From assembly GCA_023265595.1 (NCBI GenBank), contig JAHFSU010000020.1, positions 1 to 39,805 on the forward strand: a stretch of DNA of 39,805 nt, written 5' to 3'. This document shows positions 7,141-38,655 of this stretch, piece after piece; position 1 is the first letter of the stretch; every line of letters begins with the position of its first letter. The translations under genes and the position numbers were made by a program. The stretch comes from Deltaproteobacteria bacterium. GTDB taxonomy: Bacteria > UBA10199 > SPLOWO2-01-44-7. The notes beneath the pieces are model-generated. The model did not search any database. It worked only from the letters and a program-made list of their open reading frames with translations, and had not been told where the DNA came from.

Positions 7141-7207
7141 TGTCATTCCTGCGAAAGCAGGAATCCAGTGTTGTTTAAGATGGATCCCCGCTTTCGCGGG
7201 GATGACA
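7141..7207. repeat. 67-bp palindromic REP/MITE-like element
   Basis: Two 27-bp arms (7141-7167, 7181-7207) are near-perfect inverted repeats around a 13-nt spacer. Each arm is itself a small hairpin: CCTGCGAAAGCAGG and CCCCGCTTTCGCGGGG. Differences between the arms are paired changes that keep the internal hairpins intact, a sign of selection on structure. The type, beginning TGTCATTCC and ending GATGACA, is a familiar dispersed bacterial repeat. It ends one base before the prepilin peptidase ATG. Confidence 0.9.
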
Positions 7208-7208
7208 T

Positions 7209-7982
7209 ATGTTATTTCTCGCAGGCATTTTTGGCCTTTGCATCGGCAGTTTTTTGAATGTGGTGATTTACCGTTTGCCGCGTGGAGAATCTATTGTAAC
7301 GCCTCGCTCCCGATGTCCTTCATGCGAACATCCCATCGCATGGTACGATAACATCCCCCTCGTGAGCTGGCTTTTGCTGCGGGGCAAGTGCCGGCATTGC
7401 TCCGTCAAAATTTCATTTCGCTACTTTTTGGTGGAACTTTTAGCGGGGGTTTTATCTATTGCCACCTTTTTTTATTTTCAGGATCTCGTTTTGTATTTTG
7501 CCTATTTCTGTTTTTTGATTGCCCCTCTTTTGGCTGTCATTTTCATCGATCTCGATCACCGGATTATCCCTGACAGTATTTCTCTCCCCGGAATTGTGGC
7601 GGGGGTTTTAGTCCACTATTTGACCGCTTTTCCGGGGGAGGGGAGCGGTGCGCTTGTCGATTCCGGCGTCGGCATTTTGGTCGGCGGCGGGTTTCTGTTT
7701 TTAGTCGCCTTTGCTTATGAAAAACTCAAAAAGAGGGAGGGGCTTGGCGGCGGCGATGTAAAACTGGCCGCGATGCTCGGCGCCTTTTTTGGATGGAAGC
7801 AGGTCTTGATGATTTTGCTGATCTCCTCCGTTTTGGGTTCGGTGATCGGCCTTGTGGTCGTGAGCCTCAAAAAAAACTGGCACTATGCGATTCCCTTCGG
7901 CCCCTTTCTCGCCGCCGCCGCCACTCTCCAACTCTTCTTCGGCGAACCGATTTTATATTGGTACCTCTCGCTGTTTCATTAA
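7209..7982 (+). CDS. pilD: Prepilin leader peptidase / N-methyltransferase
   Basis: PilD is an inner-membrane aspartyl protease that cleaves type IV prepilins and type II secretion pseudopilins and methylates the new N-terminus. Visible features: GSFLNVVIYRLPRGESI, the four-cysteine cytoplasmic loop (CPSCEHPIAWYDNIPLVSW with CRHC), the first catalytic aspartate in FIDLDHRIIPD, and the second in GLGGGDVKLAAMLGAFFG. Several hydrophobic segments follow and the length (257 aa) is normal. The ATG comes one base after a palindromic repeat, and the only Shine-Dalgarno-like sequence (GGGG, seven bases upstream) is inside the repeat's right arm. No pilin genes are nearby. The symbol is used generically; it could equally be called gspO. 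Confidence 0.93.
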   Translation: MLFLAGIFGLCIGSFLNVVIYRLPRGESIVTPRSRCPSCEHPIAWYDNIPLVSWLLLRGKCRHCSVKISFRYFLVELLAGVLSIATFFYFQDLVLYFAYFCFLIAPLLAVIFIDLDHRIIPDSISLPGIVAGVLVHYLTAFPGEGSGALVDSGVGILVGGGFLFLVAFAYEKLKKREGLGGGDVKLAAMLGAFFGWKQVLMILLISSVLGSVIGLVVVSLKKNWHYAIPFGPFLAAAATLQLFFGEPILYWYLSLFH

Positions 7983-12756: not shown

Positions 12757-14004
12757 ATGAAAATCACCGCCATCAAAGGAATGAGCGATATTTTACCGCC
12801 GGAATCCTCCGTTTGGCGCGGGGTGGAAGAGAAGGTACGCCAAATTTTCGACAGCTTTGGCTTTGAAGAAATTCGCACCCCGATTGTGGAACCGACTGAA
12901 CTTTTTGTGAGAAGTGTCGGTGAAACCTCCGCGATCGTCGAAAAAGAGATGTACACTTTTGAAGACAAAAAGGGGGTGTCGCTGACGCTGCGCCCCGAAG
13001 GGACGGCCCCCGTCGTTCGCGCCTATATTGAAAACGGTCTGCAAGCCAAATATCCGGTAGCGAAACTCTGTTATTTTGGCCCGATGTTCCGTTATGAACA
13101 GCCTCAAAAAGGGCGCTCCCGCCAATTTTTTCAGATCGGCGCCGAATTGTTGGGGGCGGAGTCGCCCATGGCCGATGCCGAAATGCTGATCCTCCTCAAA
13201 AATATTTTTTCCGGGTTGGGTATTGAGGATGTCCGCTTTGAAATTAACTCACTCGGTTGCGCCGTCTGCCGGCCGAAATATCTTGAGGCCATTCACGGTT
13301 TCATGAAGGGAAAAGAGAAGAAATTTTGTGACGATTGTCAAAAAAGGGCAAAAAAAAATCCGCTCCGCATTTTGGATTGTAAAAAAGAACCTTGCCGCGA
13401 GTTGACGGAGGCTGTTTCCACCATCAGTGATTTTTGGTGTGAGGCCTGCCGGAAACATTATCGCGAAGTGCGCGGCCTGCTTTTGGCAGGGCATGTCCCG
13501 TTCAAGGAAAATACGAGGATTGTGCGCGGTCTCGATTATTATTGCCGCACCGCCTTTGAAGTTTTGTGCGACCGGCTTGGGGCGCAGAATGCGGTAGCGG
13601 CCGGTGGTCGCTATGATGGTCTGGTCAAGGATTTGGGCGGGCCGGATATTCCCGGCGTCGGTTTTGCGATCGGAATGGAGCGACTGACATTGTTGGCTCC
13701 TTTGATTCACGATTCACGACCCACGATTCACGAGCCGATGTTCTTTGCACTTTTGGGATCCGAAGCGGAGCAGGCGGCCTTGTCGGTCATTCAGGAATTA
13801 AGGGAAAAATCGCTCAGGGTTGAATCGGCCTACGGCGGTTCCCTCAAAAGTCAGCTTCGGCGGGCCGACAAATTAAAAGCGAAATGGGTTGTGATCCTTG
13901 GTGAAAACGAGGTCAAAAAAGGGGTCGCTATTGTCAAAAACATGCATGACGGAAAACAAAACGAGATTTTAATGGGGCGACTGGTCGGAGAATTATCCAA
14001 ATGA
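12757..14004 (+). CDS. hisS: Histidyl-tRNA synthetase
   Basis: Class II synthetase charging tRNA-His. Motif 2 region [24 protein letters not shown], the zinc-type cysteine region ([21 protein letters not shown]), the histidine-specific [12 protein letters not shown], and motif 3 [11 protein letters not shown] are all present. The C-terminal anticodon-binding domain starts around [17 protein letters not shown]. Length is 415 residues. Between motif 3 and this domain lies [12 protein letters not shown] (about residues 315-326), encoded by a small direct-repeat cassette that also occurs at the end of the kinase gene. It probably forms an extended linker. hisS overlaps aspS as ATGA, the common hisS-aspS pairing. 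Confidence 0.97.
13704..13734. repeat. In-frame short repeat inside hisS
   Basis: Overlapping GATTCACGA blocks separated by short spacers, 31 bases in all. The last 23-24 bases match the repeat at 31898-31921 apart from one base. It encodes a linker segment of HisRS without breaking the frame. Confidence 0.65.
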
Positions 14005-31884: not shown

Positions 31885-31897
31885 ACCCACCTCCTAC

Positions 31898-31921
31898 GAT
31901 TCACGATCCACGATTCACGAG
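31898..31921. repeat. Short repeat forming the 3' end of the kinase gene
   Basis: Two GATTCACGA blocks around a TCC spacer; one base differs from the matching part of the hisS copy (13704-13734). On the minus strand it encodes LVNRGS and the TGA stop of the kinase, so the end of that protein comes from the repeat. Confidence 0.65.
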
Positions 31922-37494: not shown

Positions 37495-38655
37495 CTAAAT
37501 AATCGAGGTGATTAAGTTTAAGGATTCGATGTGATAACTTTGTGGAAACATATCGATCGGTTGCGTTTGCACCAATTGATAACCGGCAAAGTCTTTAAGA
37601 AACTTTAAATCTCTAGCCAGCGTTTCCGGATTGCAGGAGAGATAGAGGATATTTTTCGGTTTTGTTTTGATCACCCCTTCCACCACACCGGCGGCGCCGT
37701 CACGCGGCGGGTCCAAAACCAAAAGATCGAGAGGTTTCTCCGGTTTATATTGGGAAAAAAATTTGATGGAATCGGTGCAGAGAAATTGTGGATTGCATGG
37801 TTCGACAGGCTCACCATGAACGGTCTTCAGATGCTCACCATGAACGGTCTTCAGATGCTCACCATGAACGGTCTTCAGATGCTCACCATGAACGGTCTTC
37901 AGATGCTCACCATGAACGGTGCTCGAGATGGCGGTCCGGTCGGAATCGACCGCAATGCAATTTTTGGCCAGTGGGCTCAATACTTCCGTCAAGTTACCAC
38001 TGCCGCAAAAAAGTTCGACAATGGTTTCATGGGGGAGCTTTTCCGCCCAACTTTTTAGCAGATTTTTCAAATTTTCATTTTGTTCGGGGTTAACCTGCGT
38101 AAAACCTTTTTTTCCGCTGACGTTGATTTCGTAATCTCTTTTTGTAATCCGATTTTTTCTCAGTTCCGTCAGTTGTTCATTCACACGTTCTTCGGCAATC
38201 AGACATTTTTCGATATCGACCACGGAGTAGGAATTGGGTCTATAAAATCCGAGAAGGCCCCGTTCATTGCCGTGCAGTGTCACTCGGCTTCGCCAGCCGA
38301 ATGTCTTGGGAGAGGGGATCGTTGCAAGGACTTTTGGATTTTCAATCTTGGCAACCCTCTTTAATGTCTTTTCCAGAATTTTTTGTTTCCATTCGAGTTG
38401 TGTTTCATAACGCAAGTGCTGCCACTGACAGCCGCCGCATTCGCCGTAATAAGGGCAGGGGGGATCGGTTCTTTCCGGCGCCGCCTCCACAACCTTTACC
38501 AATTTTGCTTCCAGATATTGGCGGTGGCGACGGGTGATTTCAATCTCCACCGTCTCTCCGGCCGCAACATAAGGGACGAAGACCGGTTTGCCATCGAGCA
38601 ACCCCATCCCTTTCCCTTCGTAGACTAATTTTTCGATTTTAATTCTGTTTGTCAT
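37495..38655 (-). CDS. rlmD: 23S rRNA (uracil-5-)-methyltransferase, RlmD type, with tandem repeat insert
   Basis: Transfers a methyl group from SAM to C5 of a uridine in 23S rRNA. It has an N-terminal TRAM domain (KIEKLVYEGKGMGLLDGKPVFVPYV). The iron-sulfur cluster cysteines are C67, C73, C76 and C151 (PCPYYGECGGCQWQH). SAM motif I is VELFCGSGNLTEVL (213-226), the acidic residue is in CIAVDSD, motif IV is VLDPPRDGA, and the catalytic cysteine is in YLSCNPETLARDL. Between the acidic strand and the next strand lies a repeat of TVHGEHLK four times followed by TVHGEPVEPC (residues 246-287), encoded by 24-bp DNA repeats. It replaces the usual helix after motif II. The enzyme could be RlmD or a relative such as RlmCD/RumA-type. 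It is upstream of rpsU on the same strand. Confidence 0.92.
   Translation of the reverse strand: MTNRIKIEKLVYEGKGMGLLDGKPVFVPYVAAGETVEIEITRRHRQYLEAKLVKVVEAAPERTDPPCPYYGECGGCQWQHLRYETQLEWKQKILEKTLKRVAKIENPKVLATIPSPKTFGWRSRVTLHGNERGLLGFYRPNSYSVVDIEKCLIAEERVNEQLTELRKNRITKRDYEINVSGKKGFTQVNPEQNENLKNLLKSWAEKLPHETIVELFCGSGNLTEVLSPLAKNCIAVDSDRTAISSTVHGEHLKTVHGEHLKTVHGEHLKTVHGEHLKTVHGEPVEPCNPQFLCTDSIKFFSQYKPEKPLDLLVLDPPRDGAAGVVEGVIKTKPKNILYLSCNPETLARDLKFLKDFAGYQLVQTQPIDMFPQSYHIESLNLITSII
37799..37920. repeat. Dispersed REP unit amplified into a 24-bp tandem repeat
   Basis: From GGTTCGACAGG at 37799 the sequence matches a common bacterial dispersed repeat (GTTCGACAGGCTCACCATGA type). From 37810 a 24-bp unit, beginning CTCACCATGAACGG, occurs four times without any mismatch (37810-37905), followed by a 15-base partial unit. 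The unit length is a multiple of three, so copy-number changes keep the rlmD frame. Confidence 0.95.

Follow-up and report, generated by a model that had tools for sequence, protein, structure and literature searches.

Introduction

Intragenic REPs tagged with GTAG or CGTC are short palindromic repeats, often arranged as dimers, which lie inside ORFs that code for conserved proteins (uvrA and tRNA synthetases among them), and some grouped intragenic REPs encode 43-82 aa (BMC Genomics 2013, PMC3733652). The Rickettsia palindromic elements (RPE), with a length of 105-146 bp, are inserted in frame in many conserved genes, and an RPE-bearing guanylate kinase has been shown to be active, with an altered substrate affinity (reviewed in PMC2229807). 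In the systems formed by REPINs and RAYT transposases, inverted REP pairs are scattered over the genome, and the REPs are mostly extragenic (PLoS Genet. 2011, PMC3116915). Heptameric tandem repeats are built from a 7-bp unit (e.g. PMC4692102). Here, we describe a tandem array inside the rlmD gene in a window of 39,805 nucleotides (the whole stretch of DNA that was analyzed). The array strikingly illustrates a process that is already known and is not a special switch in one enzyme.

Results

The rlmD gene and its tandem array

The ORF at 37495..38655 on the (-) strand codes for a protein of 386 aa, insert included, of the rlmD family (23S rRNA m5U1939 methyltransferase), with a TRAM domain (PF01938) and a methyltransferase domain (PF05958). 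Its match to the TIGR00479 profile (264.7 bits, cutoff 183.55) makes it a member of the RlmD/RumA family, and the best solved relative of the product is RumA (1uwv). The SAM-binding motif I (ELFCGSGN) and the acidic motif II (AVDSD), located upstream of the insert at 37939..38016 (-), are both intact, as are the catalytic motifs LDPPRDG, LSCNPETLARD (with the nucleophile Cys), and YHIESL, located downstream of it at 37519..37716 (-). The initial annotation had claimed that the catalytic motifs are intact despite the insert; this is borne out, and all four Cys of the Fe-S site and the family-invariant residues are likewise retained. RlmD is dispensable in E. coli, so damage to the gene could be tolerated, and the insert might then be a sign of lost function in a decaying pseudogene. 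However, the frame is open at full length, the catalytic and Fe-S residues are all kept, and identity to the sister species (G001) is 80% upstream of the insert and 86% downstream, which together make decay extremely improbable.

The whole in-frame insert (37798..37920, (-) strand) follows directly after motif II and reads (TVHGEHLK)4 TVHGEPVEP, with the four TVHGEHLK copies at residues 246-277 and TVHGEPVEP at residues 278-286. On the (+) strand, a complete type-A REP-like unit, GTTCGACAGGCTCACCATGAACGG, is located at 37800..37823; it consists of the head GTTCGACAG and the arm GCTCACCATGAACGG and is the single full copy in the window. The tandem array spans 37809..37920 (+) and contains 4.7 identical copies of the 24-bp unit GCTCACCATGAACGGTCTTCAGAT (TRF score 224, 100% matches), which makes it by far the strongest tandem array of the window. 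The arms are separated by the 9-nt linker TCTTCAGAT (37824..37832, (+)), which recurs at 37848, 37872, and 37896. The longest exact lag-24 run in the array was 88 bases; in 200 mononucleotide shuffles, it never exceeded 11. Thus, both TRF and the lag-24 shuffle test confirmed the earlier observation that rlmD holds, in frame, four identical units of 24 bp and one partial unit, and the identity of the units suggests a recent expansion. A strong DNA hairpin formed by the array was considered and rejected, as the folding energy of the array DNA was no more stable than that of shuffled sequences.

Comparison with relatives and predicted structure of the insert

The RlmD matches in relatives break off at the position of the insert. 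By alignment, the two closest rlmD orthologues (G001 and G004) are without it, and carry the loops DLATSSFFSI or EQAQKSFPAV in its place, so that the net gain in rlmD between conserved anchors is +108 nt. An insert common to the rlmD genes of relatives was looked for by matches and by alignment, and none was found; the case that the initial annotation had set against its own reading, an unchanged unit number in relatives, is not what is seen. Unit numbers do differ at other orthologous sites. In lysA, the insert of the sister species occupies the same position and shares the right junction exactly, but has three 24-bp-spaced arms and a different linker, and an FG-GAP-like protein has two sites with 2 units in the genome of the window (G000) and 1 in the sister species. 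Orthologous sites thus do not keep a constant unit number over species time. The sister genome also has 24-bp-spaced arms of its own in the linker segment of an E2 gene (dihydrolipoamide acyltransferase; G001, C157), where the arms use the CACCACGA variant, which frees that frame of the TGA stop.

An AlphaFold model of RlmD with the insert (33 sequences) had a mean pLDDT of 90 and a pTM of 0.88. The blocks over residues about 251-280 had a pLDDT of 42-60, a low value that is expected regardless, as no homologue covers the insert, and the surrounding fold was mostly above 90. The model thus fits a peptide that is looped out of the confidently predicted RlmD fold, which is the most likely arrangement of the repeat.

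A dispersed REP-like family

The genome of the window is a draft of 1.87 Mb in 70 contigs, 97% complete. The head TTCGACARGCTCA has 68 exact 13-mer copies in it, while the reversed-pattern control had 0, and the 24-mer unit was found within 3 mismatches at 33 places, with no match for its reversed-pattern control. About 55 REP clusters were counted in the stretches of G000 that were read around family matches. The rlmD array belongs to this REP-like palindromic repeat family. Full units fall into two subtypes, and the loop and tail bases are complementary in 48/48 (TGG with CC, or TCC/CCC with GG); this complementarity could stem from one double change between two subfamilies and not from many compensating events. 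Heads often form inverted pairs with a neighbour no more than 80 bp away, as in REPINs (14 pairs in one orientation and 8 in the other). The core head motif is present in 33/46 genomes of the phylum, but type-A tandem arrays were found only in the two genomes of this genus.

The terminal GTAG or CGTC tag, which marks two described super-families, is absent from the unit. G000 has five Y1 transposase genes (PF01797), and no copy of this REP was found within about 1.5 kb of any of the five; a transposase gene flanked by the family was accordingly rejected. A literature search on the sequence of the repeat found no paper.

Tandem arrays, linkers, and the reading-frame rule

About 20 clusters have a tandem array of their own, built from a common 15-nt arm and a locus-specific linker of 9-10 nt that is nearly uniform inside each array. 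The linkers of 14 loci matched the inverted head TTGTCGAAGG at 6.36/10 positions, compared with 3.05 for shuffled linkers (0 of 20000) and 4.43 for the same linkers against the forward head. The rlmD linker alone matches the inverted head at only 5/10 positions, and the inverted-head reading rests on the whole class. Since the linkers match the inverted head above both the shuffled linkers and the forward head, the repeated unit appears to be the arm plus a degenerate inverted head. Captured target DNA was rejected as the main source of the linkers, because those of independent loci resemble one another and the inverted head. The initial annotation had proposed that a REP unit was amplified: a REP-type insertion after the motif II strand and its in-frame amplification hold, but the amplified part is arm plus linker, not a whole REP.

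The array period was divisible by 3 in 13/13 coding arrays and in 2/8 non-coding arrays (Fisher p=5e-4), a test in which the coding or non-coding call leans partly on open frames. All coding periods (n=13) were 24, 21, or 42, whereas the non-coding periods (n=8) were 22, 22, 23, 23, 23, 24, 24, and 26. In sucC, the element lies at the very end of the gene and the frame stops within the repeat; the array past the stop has a 22-bp period. Selection is thus visible on a short mobile repeat, which grows by 21 or 24 bases within genes and mostly by 22, 23, or 26 outside them. Additionally, non-coding DNA of G000 holds 83-bp tandem arrays of alternating type-A and type-B REP units (G000:C21:41184-41441 and C44:31846-32140).

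The array length might also come from wrongly stacked or collapsed reads, as the initial annotation had cautioned. The genome is an unfinished draft, and the arrays in prmC and rnr hold N-gaps, the prmC gap with duplicated flanks. However, the rlmD array is only 112 bp long, shorter than common sequencing reads, about 20 loci have arrays whose linkers differ from locus to locus, and the separately assembled sister genome also has such arrays. An array length that is an assembly artefact is therefore very unlikely, and pure invention of the array by the assembly is unlikely, but the exact count of 4.7 units is uncertain, given the N-gaps in the prmC and rnr arrays, a warning that array lengths in this draft may be wrong. 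In prmC (G000:C57:52177-52465), the identical flanks on either side of the N-run inside the REP array are probably a scaffolding error.

Insertion in conserved genes

In total, 24 in-gene sites were aligned to orthologues, and both flanks were conserved at the protein level in 22 of them. The remaining two sites (nth and xseA) are N-terminal and may precede the true start. Genes with in-frame clusters include uvrA, rnr, priA, valS, nadC, smc, prmC, and lysA. A status special to rlmD is not supported, as the same kind of insert is found in more than 20 conserved genes of G000.

This bears on the proposal of a phase-variable switch, in which slippage would make cells differ in how many TVHGEHLK units they have and would thereby tune RlmD activity. 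It gains from the identical units and the recent expansion they imply, from the unit numbers that differ between species at other sites, and from the position of the insert behind motif II, near the SAM pocket. Nevertheless, every in-gene unit keeps the frame, which leaves no on/off switching, the presence of the same element in more than 20 unrelated genes argues against an RlmD-specific role, and the predicted structure is a loop excursion with an intact fold. We consider such a switch highly improbable, and the tuning of RlmD by copy number, suggested in the initial annotation, is unsupported.

Other repeats in the same loops

Tandem repeats of heptamers, scored as a lag-7 run of at least 12, were found in 10/49 loop windows in relatives and in 1% of background windows (p=5e-11); the background windows were drawn from the same loci, and the match is imperfect, as the loops are variable regions. 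Examples of heptamer-filled loops are those of rnr and prmC in G001 and valS in G004. In G004, rnr and a response-regulator-like gene carry a similar element encoding ASFVKSEAPTRYASRDTSD in loops that hold REPs in G000. Within the window, an in-frame heptamer array, GATTCAC (4.3 copies), is located at 13704-13733 in a hisS-like ORF. A second heptamer array, ACGATTC (3.6 copies), lies at 31896-31920, where a protein-kinase-like ORF meets the gene that follows. Between two genes at 7141-7209 lies a palindromic repeat, gtcattcctgcgaaagcaggaatcca ... tggatccccgctttcgcggggatgac, apparently of a further repeat family.

Discussion

Proposed origin of the rlmD array

Taken together, the array is very probably an intragenic element of the REP/REPIN type that entered rlmD, expanded in frame, and encodes a peptide that is looped out and tolerated, the same process having acted in more than 20 other genes. 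A type-A unit of the dispersed TTCGAC-headed family would have entered rlmD after the split from the sister species, mobilized perhaps by a Y1 (REP-type) transposase, and would have displaced part of the variable loop behind motif II. The arm-plus-linker part may then have multiplied head to tail, most simply because identical arms slipped or recombined unequally, with survival only of length changes in multiples of three bases. The effect on the RlmD enzyme is presumably near-neutral; tolerance has its best precedent in the RPE-bearing guanylate kinase, which stayed active (PMC2229807). Loops in over 20 further conserved genes of G000 would have been filled in the same way.

A broader reading, which we offer tentatively and regard as unlikely, is that permissive loops of housekeeping proteins in this bacterial family are landing sites used repeatedly, with unrelated short repeats (REP arrays, heptamers, and other palindromes) taking one another's place there, and that arm units may be added head to tail by the REP machinery itself instead of by plain slippage. 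If the landing-site reading were true, repeats would be a main source of loop-length evolution here. The filling of the same loops by unrelated repeats in related species is a natural experiment on loop-length gain. For annotation, segments of the HGEPVEP-, FDKLRxxG-, and LRQAQ-type are best annotated as repeat-derived and should not be taken as domains.

Comparison with known systems

Intragenic insertion of REPs and RPEs has already been published, and what is new here is that the tandem arrays are filtered by the reading frame and that different repeat families reuse the same loops. Similar to the GTAG/CGTC REPs, the repeats of G000 are short palindromes within conserved ORFs, uvrA among them (PMC3733652). 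However, the G000 family is headed by TTCGAC, is without a terminal GTAG or CGTC, and forms regular head-to-tail arrays of 21-26 bp with locus-specific linkers. As with RPE, the palindromic elements are inserted in frame in conserved ORFs and are absent from orthologues (22 sites, both flanks conserved), but the units are about 24 bp instead of 105-146 bp, are tandemly amplified, and occur in a different bacterial lineage. G000 shares with REPIN/RAYT systems the inverted unit pairs genome-wide and the Y1 transposase genes. It differs from them in that REPs there lie mostly outside genes, and in that none of its transposase genes was found to be flanked by the repeat. The heptameric repeats (PMC4692102) are likewise tandem and short, and in related species some of these protein loops are filled by heptamers, whereas the REP array of G000 does not have a 7-bp unit and is unrelated to them in sequence.
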